Positions 3,322-11,597 of a stretch of 64,000 nucleotides of DNA are shown one piece after another. Below the pieces are notes generated by a model that was given only the letters and a program-made list of their open reading frames with translations, ran no database searches and had not been told where the DNA came from. This DNA is from an uncultured Eubacteriales bacterium (lineage in GTDB: Bacteria; Bacillota; Clostridia; Christensenellales; Aristaeellaceae). Position numbers and translations under genes: made by a program. Position 1 is the stretch's first letter, and every line of letters begins with the position of its first letter. Location: NCBI GenBank assembly GCA_902774025.1, contig CACYGY010000004.1, positions 1-64,000 on the forward strand. Direction: 5' to 3'.

Positions 3322-6300
3322 CTATTCGTCATAATCCTGGAGACTGACGGAAACCATTTTTGAAACACCCTGTTCTTCCATTGCAACACCATAGAGAACA
3401 TTGCATCTTTCCATGGTGCCTTTTCTGTGTGTGATGACAATAAACTGGGTGTTTTCACTGTATTCTTTCAGATAATCTGCATAATAACCGATATTGGCGT
3501 CATCCAAAGCAGCTTCAATTTCATCCAATATGCAGAATGGTGTAGGCTTCAGTTTCAGCATGGCAAACAAAATGGCGATAGCGGTTAATGCCCGTTCTCC
3601 ACCGGAGAGAAGAGACAAAAGCTGAAGTTTTTTTCCAGGTGGCTGGGCGTTGATTTCAATTCCGCAATTCAGAGGATCTGAGGGATCTGTCAGAAGAAGT
3701 TCAGCATGACCTCCGCCAAAGAGTCTTACGAAAGTTTCAGTGAAATATTTCTTCATGATCTCGAAATTGACTTCAAAGGTTTTTTTCATTTGTTCGAGAA
3801 GCTGCTCAATCAGTTCTTTCAAATCCTGCTCAGCTTTTGTCAGATCATTCTTCTGTTCTGTGAGTGTGGTAAATCTTTCCTTGGTAGCAGCGTATTCTTC
3901 CATGGCATTCACATTTACCGGGCCAAGATTTCGAATATTGGAATTCAGTTCCCTGACTCTGCTGTCTGCTTTTGCCTCATTGATGCTTTCAGGGGTACGG
4001 AATTCTTCGGCTCCACCATAGGTCAGTTCATAAGTATTCCATATTCTTTCTTCCAGATATTTCAAATCATTTTCCTGTTTTGAATACTGGATTTCAAGAC
4101 GATGTTTTCTTTCCTGATCCTGATTGAGTGAGACATGCATACGGTCGATGTCTTCCAGATATAACTTCAGAGTGGACTGGTGATCATGTCTGTCATTCTC
4201 AAGATTCAGAATCGAATCTTCCAGGAGGGACATTTCCTTCTGTTTTTCATCCGAAAGTCTTTTCAGTTCAAGAAGCTGTTCCTGATTCTGCTGTGTGAGA
4301 AGGAGAAACTGTTGAATTTTCTCCCTTCTGTTTTCATTTTCTTTCAGAAGAGAAGAACAGTCCTGCTCATTTCTGGTTTTCTCTCTGTGAAGGGTTTCCA
4401 TCTGATGATCCAGATCAGAAAGAAGCAGTTTCTTTTCTGTAATCTGATTTGTCAGAGACTGAACATCGTTTCGGATTACGGCCAGTTGATCCTGATACTC
4501 ACGGGTTTTCTGATCCATTTCCTCCTGATCAAAATCAGCATCATCCCCGGGAATTGAGGTTTCGTGCATCTGCTGCTGGATGGAGGAAAGTGATTCGTCA
4601 AGCTGTGCAATGGCCTCTTCCGTTTCAAGAATTCTGTCGTTCAGATCCTTCATATCCGCCTTCAGGGATTCAAGACGTTCATTCTCTCTTGCAACGGATA
4701 TTTCCTGTTGATGAAACTGTTCTGTTACATCTGAAAGAGAACTCCTGGCACCTGCTTTTTTGTTCTGATAGTCTTCCAGCAGATTACGGGTCTTTTCATA
4801 TTCAATATCCAGTTGATCCAGCAGTGCCTTCAGATTCTTGATTTCTCTTTCCTTTCCGAGAAGACTGTTATACCGGGAATGTACGGAACCGCCTGTCATG
4901 GATCCGCCGGAATGCATAACATCTCCCTTCAGCGTAACCAGACGGAAAGACTGGTTTCCGGCGCGCATGATTGAAATTCCGTGTTCCAGTTCGTCGGCAA
5001 TCACTGTCCGACCAAGAAGATTCTCCACGATGGACCGATAGGCAGGCTGGTAATGGATCAGGTCCGAAGCAATTCCAATGCACCCGGGCATCTGAAGAAC
5101 CAGTCTTTCCTCCTGAGAAAGATGTTTTGAGTGAATCGAGGATATGGGAAGAAAGGTGGCTCTGCCAAGCTGGTGGCTGCGAAGATAATCGATCAGCGTT
5201 TTAGCCGTGTGCTCGTTGTCCGTCACAATATTCTGAAGAGCGCCTCCCAGGGCCATGTCGATGGCTGTTTCATACTGTTCCGGTACTGAAAGGAGCTGGG
5301 CGAGAACGCCGTGAACACCCTGAATGGACTGATCTTTCGAGTATCGTATGGCTTTTTTTACGGATTGCTGATATCCGTCCAGTTCCTGACTCATTTCAAC
5401 CAGTAGCTGATACTGGCTTCTGGTTGCCTGGATTCTGGATGTCAGCGTATCCATTTTTCCATAGGTGTCCGAAACGAGGAAAGTGTACTGATCCAGTTCT
5501 CCCTGGATCCTTGTCTGTTCAGCCTGTATGGATTCCAGAGCCTGAACTTCCGTTTTCAGTTTTTCGGAAGCTTCCATCAGGATTGATTCTGAATGCTCCT
5601 TTTTTTCAGCCTGCTGATTCCGAAGGCGATCCATCTCTTCTCTGCGGCTGACAATCTGTGAGAGAAGCGTTTCCAGTCGGGTACGGTCATTCTGGAATAC
5701 AGACCGCCGGTTGATAGCATCCAGGATTCTGTCTTTGTGTTTTTCCAGCCGGTCAGAACATTCCTGTTCTCTGACTGTCGTTTCGTTCAGTCTGGACTGG
5801 AGAGACAGAAGCTGCTGGTTTTCATCCTCCAGAGTTTTTTTGATTTCCAGGGCGGATTCATCCTGGAGGCGCTGATGTTCAGCCAGTTTCCGGATGCGTT
5901 CTTCGTACGCTGAGATGTCGGACAGAAGCTGCTGTCTGTTTTCTTCCCGGGTGTCAATCTGGGTCTGTATGTTCCGGTTTTCGCTTTCATACTCATGAAA
6001 GACTGTGGAAAGTTTCAGGAGCTGGTCTTTTTTTCTGTCAATTTCATCCGTAAGCAGTTCGATTTTTTTCTGGCTTTCATCCCGTTTTTCGTTTTTCTCC
6101 TGAAGAAGTGAGTCATAGTCAGAAATGACCTGCGTAAGATTATCGATATCTTCCTTCAGCTTTTTGATTTTCTGCTTCATCCGGTCTGAACGGATCAGGA
6201 AGAGATTCAGCTCCAGTTTTTTCAGCTCTTCCGACCATTCCAGGAACTGGCGGGCTGCCCTGGACTGTTCCTCCAGAGGTTCGAGCTGGCGAGCAAGCTC

Positions 6301-6888
6301 ATCAATGATATCTGTGATCCGTTCCTCATTCTGGATTGTTTTCTCCAGTTTTCGGTCGGCTTCTTCCTTCCTGGACTTGAACTTGACAATACCGGCCGCT
6401 TCTTCAAAGATCATGCGGCGGTCTTCGCTTTTCCGGGAGAGGATTTCATCAATACGCCCCTGCCCGATGATGGAATAACCTTCTTTTCCGATGCCTGTAT
6501 CCCGGAAAAGATCAATGACGTCCTTCAGACGGCACGATGACTGATTGATATAATACTCACTTTCACCATTTCTGAAAACCCGTCGGGTAATCTGTATGTC
6601 TGAGTAATCGGAAGAAAGCGTATGATCGCTGTTATCAAAAGCAAGGGAGACTTCACAGTAATTCAGCGGTTTCTTTTTCTGGGTGCCGTTGAAAATCACA
6701 TCGGCCATATTGGTGCCGCGGAGCATTTTTGCGCTCTGTTCCCCCAGGACCCACCGGACAGCATCACCGATGTTGCTTTTGCCTGATCCGTTCGGACCGA
6801 CAATGCCGGTGATTCCCTCTCCGAAAACGATTTCTGTTTTCTGAGCGAAGGATTTGAATCCGTACAGGTCAATCTTCTTAAGACGCAT
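3322..6888 (-). CDS. smc: Chromosome segregation/condensin ATPase SMC
   Basis: SMC forms the condensin core with ScpA and ScpB and compacts and separates chromosomes. The 1188-residue product has the usual build: N-terminal P-loop GPNGSGKSN at about residues 31-39, long coiled coil, a hinge near residues 500-650 (GVHGVLAQLLSVPEQYETAI... MHSGGSMTGGS), a second coiled coil, and the C-terminal signature LLSGGERALTAIAILFA followed by Walker B FCILDEIEAALDDAN. The frame stays open far upstream, opposite gpmI, but the ATG at 6888 is chosen because it begins the conserved MRLKKIDLYGFKSF and has GGGAGG at good spacing. An extended -10 (TGGTATAAT on the minus strand, ATTATA at 6917-6922) lies just upstream. 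Its partners scpA, scpB and ftsY are not in the window. Confidence 0.97.
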   Translation of the reverse strand: MRLKKIDLYGFKSFAQKTEIVFGEGITGIVGPNGSGKSNIGDAVRWVLGEQSAKMLRGTNMADVIFNGTQKKKPLNYCEVSLAFDNSDHTLSSDYSDIQITRRVFRNGESEYYINQSSCRLKDVIDLFRDTGIGKEGYSIIGQGRIDEILSRKSEDRRMIFEEAAGIVKFKSRKEEADRKLEKTIQNEERITDIIDELARQLEPLEEQSRAARQFLEWSEELKKLELNLFLIRSDRMKQKIKKLKEDIDNLTQVISDYDSLLQEKNEKRDESQKKIELLTDEIDRKKDQLLKLSTVFHEYESENRNIQTQIDTREENRQQLLSDISAYEERIRKLAEHQRLQDESALEIKKTLEDENQQLLSLQSRLNETTVREQECSDRLEKHKDRILDAINRRSVFQNDRTRLETLLSQIVSRREEMDRLRNQQAEKKEHSESILMEASEKLKTEVQALESIQAEQTRIQGELDQYTFLVSDTYGKMDTLTSRIQATRSQYQLLVEMSQELDGYQQSVKKAIRYSKDQSIQGVHGVLAQLLSVPEQYETAIDMALGGALQNIVTDNEHTAKTLIDYLRSHQLGRATFLPISSIHSKHLSQEERLVLQMPGCIGIASDLIHYQPAYRSIVENLLGRTVIADELEHGISIMRAGNQSFRLVTLKGDVMHSGGSMTGGSVHSRYNSLLGKEREIKNLKALLDQLDIEYEKTRNLLEDYQNKKAGARSSLSDVTEQFHQQEISVARENERLESLKADMKDLNDRILETEEAIAQLDESLSSIQQQMHETSIPGDDADFDQEEMDQKTREYQDQLAVIRNDVQSLTNQITEKKLLLSDLDHQMETLHREKTRNEQDCSSLLKENENRREKIQQFLLLTQQNQEQLLELKRLSDEKQKEMSLLEDSILNLENDRHDHQSTLKLYLEDIDRMHVSLNQDQERKHRLEIQYSKQENDLKYLEERIWNTYELTYGGAEEFRTPESINEAKADSRVRELNSNIRNLGPVNVNAMEEYAATKERFTTLTEQKNDLTKAEQDLKELIEQLLEQMKKTFEVNFEIMKKYFTETFVRLFGGGHAELLLTDPSDPLNCGIEINAQPPGKKLQLLSLLSGGERALTAIAILFAMLKLKPTPFCILDEIEAALDDANIGYYADYLKEYSENTQFIVITHRKGTMERCNVLYGVAMEEQGVSKMVSVSLQDYDE

Positions 6889-6972
6889 ACAGGCCTCCCA
6901 TAAGTCAATCCCCATCATTATACCACAGTCTGTCCATACAGAAACGGGAGAATCCGCCGGTCTGAGATTTCG

Positions 6973-7001
6973 TTGACAATGGAAGGGGGAAGAATTAAGA
7001 T
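6973..7001 (+). promoter_or_regulatory. Promoter of gpmI
   Basis: TTGACA at 6973-6978 and TAAGAT at 6996-7001 are separated by 17 bases. The gpmI start follows about 50 bases after the predicted transcription start, with GAGGAGG before it. Confidence 0.6.
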
Positions 7002-7059
7002 ATCGCCTGAGAATGAATTCAAGAGGGTTCATGATCCAGTGAGGAGGTAACAAGTAAGT

Positions 7060-8634
7060 ATGAAAAAACCGGTTGTACTGGTCGTCATGGATGGTGTGGG
7101 TGAAACGCCTGAAGAACTTGGCAACATGGTAAAAAAAGCCACAACCCCTACCCTGGACAGTCTGAAGGAAAATCATCCGTGGATGACCATCAAAGCTCAC
7201 GGAACTGCTGTGGGCCTGCCTTCTGATGACGATATGGGAAACAGTGAGGTGGGTCATAATGCCATCGGCTGTGGACAGATCTATTCTCAGGGTGCCAAGC
7301 TGGTGAATGAATCCATTGAGAGCGGAAAAATCTATGAGTCCGAAACGTGGAAGCAGATTATCGAAAGGGTAAAGGGAAACCACAGCACCCTTCATTTTCT
7401 GGGACTCCTTTCCGACGGCAACGTGCATTCCAATATCAGTCATCTGATCGCCATGCTGAAGGAAGCCAAGAAGGAAGGAATCAGCCGGGTAAGGTGTCAT
7501 ATCCTTCTGGACGGGCGGGATGTACCCGCGACTTCCGCGCTTGAGTATGTGAAGCAGCTGGAAGATACGCTTGCTTCCCTGAACGATGATTCCTTTGACG
7601 GCAGGATTGCCAGCGGCGGCGGACGCATGAAGATCACCATGGACAGATACCAGGCAAACTGGCAGATGGTCAGGGAAGGCTGGGATGTACATGTTCATGG
7701 TGAGGGAAGACAGTTTGCCACAGCTGCCGAGGCCATTGAAACCTATCGGAAGGAACTGGAAGTGGTGGATCAGGATCTTCCCGCCTTTGTCATCGCGGAG
7801 GGCGGAAAACCTGTGGGAACCATCCAGGACGGAGACAGCGTCATTCTCTACAATTTCCGCGGCGACAGGGCCCAGGAGATTTCCATGGCCTTTGACGGAG
7901 ACGCCTCCTTTGCTCATTTTGACCGGGGTGCTGTGCCGGACGTTCTGTACGCGGGCATGCTTGAATATGACGGAGATCTGAAAATTCCTCACCGTTATCT
8001 GGTGAATCCTCCTCAGATCCGCAATACCCTGACAGAGCTGCTGGTGGAGAACGGAATCCGTGAGTATGCCTGCTCCGAGACGCAGAAGTATGGTCATGTC
8101 ACTTATTTCTGGAATGGAAACCGGTCCGAAAAGTTCTCTGAGGAACTTGAAGACTACTTTGAAATTCCTTCCGATGTCCGGTCCTTTGATGAATGTCCGT
8201 GGATGAAGGCCACCGAAATCGCGGACGCGGTGATTCAGGCAATTGACAGTGGAAAGTATGGATTCATCCGCTGTAATTTCCCCAATGGCGACATGGTGGG
8301 ACATACCGGCAACCTTCTGGCTACCGAGATTGCCGTGGAGAGCGTTGATCTGCAGCTTGCCCGGATTCTCAAGGTCTGTGAGGAAAAGAACTGCATTCTC
8401 CTTGTGACAGCGGATCATGGAAATTCCGATCAGATGCTGGAGAAGAACAAGAAGGGCAAAGTACAGGTGCGTACGGCTCACAGCCTGAATCCGGTTCCCT
8501 TCATCGTTTACGATCCGGAGAAGAAGCATGAACTGAAAGAAGGGTCCTTCGGCCTGGCAAACATCGCAGCCACGGTCGCTGAGCTTATGGAACTGAAGCC
8601 CTTTGAATCCTGGGAACCTTCCATGCTGAAATAA
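7060..8634 (+). CDS. gpmI: 2,3-bisphosphoglycerate-independent phosphoglycerate mutase
   Basis: GpmI interconverts 3- and 2-phosphoglycerate in glycolysis and gluconeogenesis using two metal ions (usually manganese) and a phosphoserine intermediate. The 524-residue length is normal for the family. Visible motifs are VMDGVGE (metal Asp at 11), GNSEVGHN with the nucleophile Ser at about 62, the LLDGRDVPATSA segment, YNFRGDRAQEI, and the C-terminal metal site TADHGNSDQM with following TAHS. GAGGAGG precedes the ATG. It stands alone, diverging from smc, and ends in a strong bidirectional terminator. Confidence 0.97.
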   Translation: MKKPVVLVVMDGVGETPEELGNMVKKATTPTLDSLKENHPWMTIKAHGTAVGLPSDDDMGNSEVGHNAIGCGQIYSQGAKLVNESIESGKIYESETWKQIIERVKGNHSTLHFLGLLSDGNVHSNISHLIAMLKEAKKEGISRVRCHILLDGRDVPATSALEYVKQLEDTLASLNDDSFDGRIASGGGRMKITMDRYQANWQMVREGWDVHVHGEGRQFATAAEAIETYRKELEVVDQDLPAFVIAEGGKPVGTIQDGDSVILYNFRGDRAQEISMAFDGDASFAHFDRGAVPDVLYAGMLEYDGDLKIPHRYLVNPPQIRNTLTELLVENGIREYACSETQKYGHVTYFWNGNRSEKFSEELEDYFEIPSDVRSFDECPWMKATEIADAVIQAIDSGKYGFIRCNFPNGDMVGHTGNLLATEIAVESVDLQLARILKVCEEKNCILLVTADHGNSDQMLEKNKKGKVQVRTAHSLNPVPFIVYDPEKKHELKEGSFGLANIAATVAELMELKPFESWEPSMLK

Positions 8635-8639
8635 AAAAT

Positions 8640-8678
8640 GCGCGGTCTGGAAAGATGGACCGCGCTCTATTTTATTTC
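8640..8678. terminator. Bidirectional terminator between gpmI and cas6e
   Basis: An 8-bp perfect stem, GCGCGGTC (8640-8647) with GACCGCGC (8658-8665), is followed by TCTATTTTATTT on the plus strand and by ATTTTTTATTT on the minus strand. It can end both gpmI and the convergent cas6e operon. Confidence 0.8.
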
Positions 8679-8756
8679 GGGGAACCGGCGATATCACGGG
8701 ACCCGGTCAGAATTCCGTGAGCGGGCTAGATGCTTTGGGCGTTCAGCAGATCCTGG

Positions 8757-9347
8757 TCAGTCAATGGTGATCAGTCCGGCTCCCAGGTCCCTGCACGGAC
8801 CGATTCCGTCGGAGGTGCACTGGCTGAACTGCTCCTCATCGATGATACGGAGTTTTCCCTCCCATCTTCCGTAAAGAAGATAGTGAGATTCCACATGGAC
8901 CCATCTTCCGGTAATGCTGTCCAGGGACACAATTTCAAACCCGCAGTCCGGTGCGTGCTGCTTCAGCCAGTGAAACAGCATGCGGGGATCCGGATACAGA
9001 GAGTCCGGTTTTCTGACTTCTCCGGAGGGAGATGCGCAGAGAATGAAAGGATGAACGCTGTCCTGAATCGCGTCATAGAGAACCGTATCGTAATCCAGAA
9101 TATGCCATGACGGGAAAACGCCCTGAAAGCCGCACATCTGATGAAGCGCGTCCAGTGTCGGACGAATCGGACTGAGAATCACCAGCCAGATGCGTCCGCT
9201 GATGGAATCAATGCGCCACAGGATATGCAGTTTTTCACCGGGAAAGGAATCCAGGATCAGGCGGTGCTGAAGTGTGGGAGAAAGAAGAAAGGAATGAGTT
9301 TCTTTCATGGTCAGATCCAGCGCCATGTGCGTGAGAAACACAGCCAT
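8757..9347 (-). CDS. cas6e: Orphan Cas6e/CasE-type CRISPR RNA endonuclease
   Basis: Cas6e cuts type I-E CRISPR transcripts at repeat hairpins and stays bound to the crRNA 3-prime end in Cascade. The 196-residue length matches the family (about 200). Visible landmarks are the N-terminal strand and turn MAVFLTHMALDLT, the LLSPTLQHRLILDSFPGE segment with a His at residue 28 where Cas6e enzymes carry the catalytic His, then LWRID and WLVILSP strands, and near the C-terminus the glycine-rich loop GIGPCRDLGAGL typical of RAMP-fold Cas6e. It starts 25 bp after lysA in the same operon. No cas1, cas2, cas3, cas5, cas7, cse1, cse2 or repeat array is in the window, so its role here is unknown. Family call is from motif order; function in CRISPR processing is inference. 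Confidence 0.8.
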   Translation of the reverse strand: MAVFLTHMALDLTMKETHSFLLSPTLQHRLILDSFPGEKLHILWRIDSISGRIWLVILSPIRPTLDALHQMCGFQGVFPSWHILDYDTVLYDAIQDSVHPFILCASPSGEVRKPDSLYPDPRMLFHWLKQHAPDCGFEIVSLDSITGRWVHVESHYLLYGRWEGKLRIIDEEQFSQCTSDGIGPCRDLGAGLITID

Positions 9348-9371: not shown

Positions 9372-10640
9372 CTACTCCAGAAGACGTGCATAACAGGGAT
9401 CCATATCCAGTGTCGCAAAATAATCTTTCGGCGTTTCAGCGCGCCGGATCAGTCTGAAATCATGGTCGCAGGTATACAGTATTTCCGCGCTTCTCAGCCG
9501 TCCGTTGTAGTTGTAACCCATGGAAAAGCCGTGGGCGCCGGTGTCATGGATGATCAGGAGATCCCCATCCCTGATTTCAGGAAGAGGCCGGTCAATGGCG
9601 AATTTGTCATTGTTTTCACACAGACTGCCCGTGACATCATAGATATGATCCAGGGGCAGATTTCTTTTACCACAGACCGTAATGTGATGATAGGCGCCGT
9701 ACATGGCCGGCCTCATCAGATTGGCCGCACAGGCATCCACGCCGATATAGTGTTTGTAGATTTCCTTATGGTGCGTGGCATGGGTGACCAGCCATCCCTC
9801 CGGACCCGTGACCCAGCGTCCAAGCTCTGTTTTGATGGAAGGACCGCCGACAGGAAAATGCTTCCTGTATATTTCGCGTACTTCCCTGCCGATCTGAAAG
9901 ATATCCGGTGCTTCCTGTTCGGGTTGATAGGGAATGCCGATACCTCCGGAAAGATTGATGAAAGCGAAAGCCAGCCCCGTTTTCCGTGAAAGCCGGATGC
10001 CCAGATTCAGAAGGATGTCCGCCAGAAGAGGATAATAGGATGAATCAATGGTATTGGAAGAGAGGAAGGAATGAAGGCCGAAGGAGGTGGATCCCAGCGC
10101 CTTCAGCTGCATCAGCCCTTCTTCCAGCTGAGATTCCGTAAATCCGAACTTGGCATCTCCGGGATTGCCCATGACGAAGTTTCCGATGGAAAACTCTCCG
10201 CCCGGATTGTAACGACAGCAGATACATTCAGGAATACCGCCATGGGTCCGGAGAATCTCAATATGGGAAATATCATCCAGATTGACCTGGGCTCCCAGGC
10301 TTCTTGCGCAGGTCAGTTCATCGTCCGGCATGGCATTGGCGGAAAACATGATGTGATGTCCGGAAAATCCCAGGGCTTTGGCCAGCATGAGTTCCGTCAT
10401 GCTTGAGCAGTCCAGACCGCACCCCTCTTCCTGAATCACCCGCAGAATGGAGGGATTCGGAAGGGCCTTGACGGCAAAGTATTCCTCAAAGTCATCGCAC
10501 CAGGAAAAAGCGGCTTTCAGATTTCTGAGCCGGGTGCGGATGCCTTCTTCGGAATAAAGATGAAAAGGCGTGGGAAAAAGCCGGGCAGCTTTTTCAAACA
10601 CATCATCTTGCAGTGTAAAATTCGGCATAACAGTATCCAC
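9372..10640 (-). CDS. lysA: Diaminopimelate decarboxylase
   Basis: LysA removes CO2 from meso-diaminopimelate to give lysine, using PLP on a fold-type III barrel. The 422-residue product shows the PLP lysine in FAVKALPNPS (about residue 58), HSFLSSN, a glycine-rich phosphate loop LSGGIGIPY, ELGRWVTGPEGWL, the active-site Cys region GSLCENNDKFA, and DTGAHGFSMGYNYNGRLR near the end. The frame opens with a GTG at 10640; an ATG at 10628 (MPNFTL) with GGGTGG upstream is an equally good start. It follows the ROK kinase by 3 bases and is followed by cas6e, suggesting one transcript. Confidence 0.92.
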   Translation of the reverse strand: MDTVMPNFTLQDDVFEKAARLFPTPFHLYSEEGIRTRLRNLKAAFSWCDDFEEYFAVKALPNPSILRVIQEEGCGLDCSSMTELMLAKALGFSGHHIMFSANAMPDDELTCARSLGAQVNLDDISHIEILRTHGGIPECICCRYNPGGEFSIGNFVMGNPGDAKFGFTESQLEEGLMQLKALGSTSFGLHSFLSSNTIDSSYYPLLADILLNLGIRLSRKTGLAFAFINLSGGIGIPYQPEQEAPDIFQIGREVREIYRKHFPVGGPSIKTELGRWVTGPEGWLVTHATHHKEIYKHYIGVDACAANLMRPAMYGAYHHITVCGKRNLPLDHIYDVTGSLCENNDKFAIDRPLPEIRDGDLLIIHDTGAHGFSMGYNYNGRLRSAEILYTCDHDFRLIRRAETPKDYFATLDMDPCYARLLE

Positions 10641-10643
10641 CCA

Positions 10644-11531
10644 TCAGTCAGATTTTTCACAGGCCCTTCTGGCCAGCAGATAGGAACCCATGACGCCACT
10701 GTGGATATCCAGTCCCGGGGGCACAATGTAGTTTTCAAGACCTTCATCCACACACGGACTCGCGACATAACCACCCAGAAGTTCCAGAGTCTTCTTCCGG
10801 ATCAGGGGATACAGAAAGGTCTGCTGCATGACGCCTCCTCCCAGAATGATTTTTTCGGGAGAGAAGGACATGATGGCATTGTGACACATCTGGGCCAGAT
10901 AGCTCACTTCCATGCGCCAGCCCGGGTGATCATGGGGCAGGTCCCTGGCGGACACATGCCATCTCTTCTCCATGGCCGGGCCGCTGGCCAGTCCTTCCAG
11001 GCAGGATCGGTGAGAGGGGCAGAATCCTTCAGGGCAGGGATCGTCCTTCTCAGGAAGGATGAGCTGGTGTCCCAGTTCAGGATGCACCAGACCATGGACC
11101 GGCTGATGGTGAATGATGAGTCCGCCCCCCACCCCGGTGCCCACGGTTACATAAAGACAGCTGGAAAGCCCCCGGGCGGCCCCCAGAACACTTTCAGCCA
11201 GAGCGGCGGCGTTCACATCCGTGTCCAGGCCTACGGGAATCTGCAGACTGTCCTGAAAAATCCTGAGGATCGGAGTATTCCGCCAGGCCAGCTTCGGCGT
11301 CCGGGTAATCATGCCGAAGTTTTCGGAGGAAGGATTCAGGTCCAGAGGACCGAAGCATCCGATGCCCAGGGAATGAATGCTGCGTTCTGAGAAAAAACGA
11401 ATCATGTCGGGGATGGTTTCATCCGGGGTACGGGTGGGAATGACTTCCCGCTCGCAGATTTTTCCGGAATCATCCAGTATGCTCATGACCATTTTTGTTC
11501 CGCCGGCTTCCAGCGCACCATATGTTTTCAT
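10644..11531 (-). CDS. ROK-family sugar kinase (fructokinase-like)
   Basis: ROK kinases phosphorylate hexoses with ATP. The 295-residue product begins YGALEAGGTKM (ATP phosphate loop), has GIGCFGPLDLNP, the sugar-binding DTDVNAAALAE with catalytic Asp, VTVGTGVGGGLI, HPELGH, and the ROK zinc site CPEGFCPSHRSCLEG. The TTPDET/FGPLDLNP and HGLVHPELGH patterns are those of the fructokinase branch, but substrate is not proven. AGAAAGGAT precedes the ATG. It is the first gene of an operon with lysA and cas6e, an unusual mixture without obvious pathway logic. Confidence 0.88.
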   Translation of the reverse strand: MKTYGALEAGGTKMVMSILDDSGKICEREVIPTRTPDETIPDMIRFFSERSIHSLGIGCFGPLDLNPSSENFGMITRTPKLAWRNTPILRIFQDSLQIPVGLDTDVNAAALAESVLGAARGLSSCLYVTVGTGVGGGLIIHHQPVHGLVHPELGHQLILPEKDDPCPEGFCPSHRSCLEGLASGPAMEKRWHVSARDLPHDHPGWRMEVSYLAQMCHNAIMSFSPEKIILGGGVMQQTFLYPLIRKKTLELLGGYVASPCVDEGLENYIVPPGLDIHSGVMGSYLLARRACEKSD

Positions 11532-11568: not shown

Positions 11569-11597
11569 AGTCTAGCCCATATTCAGGTGAAAGTCAA
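11569..11597 (-). promoter_or_regulatory. Promoter of the ROK-lysA-cas6e operon
   Basis: Read on the minus strand, TTGACT (11597-11592) and TAGACT (11574-11569) are 17 bases apart, with the kinase start about 30 bases downstream of the predicted transcription start. Confidence 0.6.

Follow-up and report, generated by a model that had tools for sequence, protein, structure and literature searches.

Cas6e (Cse3/CasE) is the pre-crRNA endoribonuclease of type I-E CRISPR systems. It grips the stem of the crRNA with a basic patch as well as with the beta6-beta7 groove loop, its residues 90-119 hold the major groove of the RNA, and on the side opposite to the RNA the thumb helix of Cas7.1 enters the cleft between the RRM sheets (PMC5965380). 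Other Cas6 proteins, for example Cas6 of P. furiosus and those of type III systems, stand alone and act in trans on arrays of the same genome. It is also known that CRISPR parts can be reused beyond adaptive immunity, the examples being the myxobacterial dev operon, the Streptomyces I-E system with a STAND NTPase, HRAMP and CAST (PMC8730458). These examples are multi-gene modules, mostly still RNA-guided or defensive, and the section of that review devoted to such cases mentions no Cas6 that resides singly in a metabolic operon. In the open-licence literature we found neither an orphan or domesticated Cas6e nor a Cas6 associated with lysA, nor any other single Cas6 residing in a metabolic operon.

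Here we consider a single Cas6e-derived gene (below, the orphan gene) paired with a biosynthetic gene, lysA. It is located in a window of 64,000 nucleotides, that is, the whole stretch of DNA that was analysed. The features of the locus are listed in Table 1.

Table 1. The orphan gene and adjacent features (positions in the window)
Feature	Position	Strand	Evidence and context
gpmI, phosphoglycerate mutase	7060..8634	+	TIGR01307, 433 bits; convergent neighbour, outside the lysA unit
10-bp hairpin, T/A tracts on either side	8640..8665		in the convergent gap between gpmI and the cas6e-like gene
Cas6e-derived orphan gene	8757..9347	-	196 aa, ATG start, TGA stop; frame intact
lysA, diaminopimelate decarboxylase	9372..10628	-	TIGR01048, 269.8 bits, slightly below the cut-off of 297.9
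ROK-family sugar kinase	10644..11531	-	NF045550, 243 bits vs. the cut-off of 400; synteny
sigma-70-like promoter match, weak	11569..11597	-	upstream of the ROK gene, 9/12 consensus positions

As had been stated in the original prediction, the ROK gene, lysA and the cas6e-like gene follow each other on one strand, the last one closing the run after a gap of 24 nt, and this spacing and common orientation suggest that the three genes are co-transcribed. This lysA is the sole match to lysA in the whole genome; its probable start is the ATG at 10628 (the orthologues begin with MPNF), the open frame reaching 10640. The best model for the ROK protein is fructokinase ScrK, with the score below the cut-off of that model. 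The promoter match is one of four sigma-70-like sites, 2.1 being expected by chance. The hairpin was detected as a terminator of the plus strand and the A tract on its opposite side was read by eye; it is probably a terminator shared by gpmI and the cas6e-like gene. The ORF of 1791 aa at 3322-8697 is artefactual and owes its length to an open antisense frame: the SMC gene proper occupies approximately 3322-6840, and the remainder of the ORF runs antisense through gpmI. There is no repeat array in the window, again as predicted: exact 20-nt repeats form isolated pairs only, and the core of the I-E repeat of this genome does not occur there.

The match to PF08798 (Pfam CRISPR_assoc) spans the whole protein (1.9e-17, 64.7 bits vs. 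the cut-off of 25), and the PADLOC models of Cas6/Cas6e match it at 1e-17 to 1e-5, whereas the cut-off of the NCBIfam Cas6e equivalog TIGR01907 is missed (23.7 vs. 45.2 bits). The AlphaFold2 model, for which a shallow alignment of 16 family sequences was the input, has pLDDT 91.6 and pTM 0.87. The closest solved structure is Cse3 of Thermus thermophilus (Tth; 3qrq, Z 21.1, rmsd 2.8, 185 residues aligned), followed by CasE of E. coli with Z about 16-18, and the top solved structures are all Cas6e. The model thus indicates that the double-RRM fold of Cas6e is retained, so that the protein passed the fold comparison proposed at the outset, and the C-terminal glycine-rich loop noticed at the same time is indeed present.

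Searches at the level of the genus, family, order and class yielded close relatives in 15 further genomes from three genera of one family. No additional member of the clade was recognised in the order- and class-wide searches, and the order-level matches with a readable ORF were basic Cas6e bearing the catalytic histidine. A scan of the genomes of 84,980 species for the conserved peptides of the clade recovered these 15 loci alone (the agreement being judged partly by coordinates); all of them are labelled as Clostridia or Clostridiales metagenome-assembled genomes (MAGs), and the source is the ruminant gut wherever it is given in the title. The plasmid search yielded ordinary Cas6e only, with 22-27% identity. 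Of the 12 g45 genomes, ten carry the orphan gene. One more weak g45 match, the eleventh, in G081, was rejected, as it is an ordinary Cas6e encoded within a full I-E locus. In four genus mates without the orphan gene, lysA and the SMC gene were likewise not detected at the thresholds used, hence the region may be missing from these assemblies; neither the orphan gene nor lysA was found in G081 and G206, the latter being 66% complete.

In the maximum-likelihood tree the sequences of the 16 species are monophyletic (support 100/100, branch length 1.82) and branch among the I-E Cas6e of the order; the tree is midpoint-rooted, and where the clade falls within canonical Cas6e is given as drawn. Thus, by phylogeny the clade is derived from a Cas protein. 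Inside the clade, the g1-type and g45 sequences separate. The window copy is 31-45% identical to the other orphans. It may be under relaxed constraint, since it forms the longest branch of its own sub-clade and stops (at 8757-8790) approximately six residues short of the C-terminal aromatic tail (F/I/V-W) found in most orthologues.

At 14 of the 16 loci lysA is immediately followed by the orphan gene on the same strand, the gap being some 12-112 nt, although many of these loci come from fragmented MAGs. In one more genome (G213), lysA and the orphan gene are located on two contigs, at the end of the first and the beginning of the second, respectively, and a short sequence (EFGIRN in one frame) is shared by the two contig ends, so that the adjacency is probable here as well, making 15 of 16; in the remaining genome (G124) the two genes are unlinked. 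A ROK gene precedes the pair at each of the six g1-type loci (at that of G006, a gap of some 430 nt intervenes) and at two of the g45 loci; the other lysA-cas6e pairs lack it. Thus, the constant unit across the genera is lysA-cas6e, with ROK outside it, and of the three-gene order, whose conservation in relatives was to be checked, only the last two genes are constant. Conservation extends farther around the g1-type loci, to ArgS, a peptidase, ROK and SMC, hence these loci represent few independent observations; in the g45 loci the flanking genes, named by eye, vary, and lysA is constant.

Several other features were observed at these loci. In five of the ten g45 loci (L041, L042, L043, L045, L046) the pair is directly followed by a HAD-type phosphatase-like gene, possibly a third member of the unit there; in others, as judged by eye, a different gene is located downstream. 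Two g45 genomes have a small conserved gene (MRIVIMDAQGGGLGKLL...) between ROK and lysA (L042:6111-6536 and L043:5997-6449). In G179, the intact lysA is preceded by a second, broken copy of its start, which continues into a methyltransferase-like frame (L050:10951-11979), reflecting either a duplication or an assembly fault.

We compared the 16 orphans with 22 canonical I-E Cas6e of the same order, the roles of residues being carried over by alignment from the Thermus and E. coli Cas6e. The catalytic histidine of the first helix is present in all 22 canonical proteins and in one of the 16 orphans, namely, as His28 of the window copy. The original prediction had placed His28 in the catalytic position, and it does align with the catalytic histidine, but it is missing from the 15 orthologues. 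As the latter have Q, R, K, C, Y or L at this position, His28, by the alignment, cannot explain why the gene is kept.

The other functional residues show a similar pattern. R41 (22/22 canonical proteins), R102 (21/22), N106 (21/22), R184 (22/22) and K186 (20/22) are each retained in less than 30% of orphans, K186 often being replaced by Arg. The segment that contains RG in 19 of the 22 canonical proteins, equated by alignment with the basic groove loop, is deleted in all 16 orphans. Moreover, all orphans are acidic (pI 4.6-6.1, net charge from -4 to -15), whereas the canonical proteins examined, two of which are fragments, are all basic (pI 8.9-10.6, net charge positive). Thus, to judge by the pI, the deletion and the loss of R41, R102 and R184, the clade lacks the basic crRNA-binding surface together with the groove loop. 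The frame of the glycine loop and the hydrophobic core are retained, and eight residues have been gained that are invariant in the clade (16/16): W54, R62, H69, G76, V77, F78, P79 and S80. The GVFPSW stretch is not wholly new, as Tth Cse3 has VFPPKP at the equivalent place.

Hence, the orphan resembles Cas6e in whole-length homology, double-RRM fold and glycine-rich loop, and differs from it in the residues and charge described above and in being encoded beside lysA, outside any cas locus. On these sequence features it is a derived homologue that fails the functional features of the family and would work unlike a crRNA nuclease. Of the initial assignment as a full-length Cas6e-type endonuclease, the homology part stands, and the endonuclease part is at variance with the clade-wide loss of nuclease features. 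The same holds for the suggestion that the gene was recruited to cut another hairpin RNA: recruitment is supported, whereas a role as an RNase disagrees with the loss of the catalytic histidine, groove segment, basic residues and positive charge. The orphan is probably not an RNase. By analogy, RNase activity could persist, as some active Cas6 enzymes have no catalytic histidine (PMC3727216) and the window copy has one.

A protein that does not cut could still bind RNA, for example the lysA transcript, and control its stability or translation. The retained Cas6 fold and glycine-rich loop, as well as the tight operon linkage to lysA, agree with such a regulator, and there is a precedent, the non-catalytic RNA-binding PhCas6nc of Pyrococcus horikoshii (PMC3727216), to which the orphan can be likened as a Cas6 fold that is probably without catalysis. 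However, PhCas6nc still binds RNA (PMC3727216), whereas the orphan clade has lost the conserved basic residues, the groove segment and the positive charge, all 16 proteins being acidic, and the window as a whole yielded no match to Rfam. We therefore regard an RNA-binding regulator as unlikely; RNA binding in another mode is possible, since the glycine-rich loop and the fold are kept.

The genome containing the window also has a complete type I-E locus on another contig (C6; L011:1-10349), comprising cas3, cas8e, cse2, cas7e, cas5e, its own cas6e, cas1 and cas2, and an array of 29-nt repeats with 61-nt spacing. The search of this genome for cas genes covered Cas6, Cas1 and Cas7e, and the other names were assigned by eye from sequence and gene order. 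The cas2 ORF (742-1887) extends into what by eye is a fused DnaQ-like exonuclease part. Cas6e of this locus is conventional, with the catalytic histidine and a basic surface, and is 29% identical to the window protein.

The presence of a complete locus with an array, together with His28 in the window copy, might indicate that the orphan is a second processing enzyme acting in trans on this array or another one, that is, an ordinary split locus; being encoded outside a complete cas operon is what it shares with the stand-alone Cas6. However, with a Cas6e of its own, the I-E locus has no need of the orphan, and an ordinary split locus is thus very improbable: the search did reveal I-E genes and an array, as had been considered, but they leave the orphan unexplained. 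Furthermore, stand-alone Cas6 serve arrays of the same genome, whereas most orphan carriers are without Cas1 and Cas7e. Cas7e was found in one of the 16 carriers (the genome of the window) and Cas1 in three, leaving 15 without Cas7e and 13 without Cas1; as the carrier genomes are 72-97% complete, each single absence is weak, but the overall pattern is not. Given also that the histidine is not conserved in the clade, processing of a distant array is very improbable.

For the closest pair of orphans (G142/G188) dN is 0.068, dS is 0.80 and dN/dS is 0.085; dN/dS is 0.17-0.40 within a five-species g45 group and about 0.17-0.72 for other unsaturated pairs, the more distant pairs being less reliable. 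All 16 frames are open, and 31 columns are invariant among the 16 proteins. Thus, the gene is conserved outside CRISPR and is under purifying selection, yet is fast-evolving. The fast evolution (with the window copy showing low identity to the other orphans and forming a long branch) and the loss of catalytic features could be expected if the gene were a functionless, drifting remnant of an I-E locus that was lost, a relic having been one of the initial options. The intact frames, the invariant columns, including the gained residues, the low dN/dS in the closest pair and in the g45 group, and the persistence of the gene beside lysA across genera speak against it, and for the clade as a whole this reading is disfavoured to the point of deserving very little credence. 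Hardly more plausible is a part in defence, whether as a mimic of Cas6e through which Cascade is blocked or regulated or as a sensor of phages that guards lysA; such a part would fit the descent from a defence system and the co-occurrence of the orphan and I-E cas6e genes in the genome of the window, but not the absence of I-E effector genes from nearly all carriers, the lack of any relative in 2.9 million viral contigs, or the inheritance within a housekeeping operon.

The homology to Cas6e, the predicted fold, the single origin of the clade, the loss of the histidine and basic residues, the acidity, the linkage to lysA, the independence from CRISPR and the purifying selection are best explained by a single exaptation: with a probability of approximately three in four, a Cas6e was exapted once and has been inherited vertically as a lysA-operon partner, a non-nuclease accessory protein tied to lysA, and it probably has a new job outside CRISPR. 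Under this exaptation scenario, a type I-E Cas6e would have left CRISPR once, in the ancestor of a few genera of gut and rumen Clostridia, settled behind lysA and then been passed on mainly vertically with it, keeping the double-RRM fold and shedding the catalytic and RNA-binding features.

What the exapted protein does can be suggested more tentatively. The residue losses indicate that it would no longer cut or tightly bind hairpin RNA, and we infer that it may take part, as a protein partner or a ligand-sensing accessory, in how diaminopimelate decarboxylase is expressed or in how active it is. That the Cas6e fold, stripped of RNA binding, became a partner or ligand sensor of this enzyme (LysA) itself is a possibility that we hold with reserve. 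We propose that the cleft receiving the Cas7 thumb in Cascade could have been reused for a protein partner, along with the invariant patch R62-H69-GVFPSW. In a structure prediction for LysA and the orphan joined through their natural in-frame read-through (with Gln for the TAG and a linker of nine residues), pTM was 0.60, and LysA itself was poorly modelled, its C-terminal part having largely pLDDT <50.

These observations carry a warning for annotation, as "Cas6e" labels of the PF08798 type can be attached to proteins whose role is unrelated to CRISPR. The CRISPR parts known to have been reused have mostly kept to nucleic-acid targeting or defence, and the orphan clade provides a testable case of a crRNA nuclease turning into something else. 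If the exaptation scenario is true, a single Cas protein has quit CRISPR altogether, lost its RNA interface and found a lasting place in a core metabolic operon.
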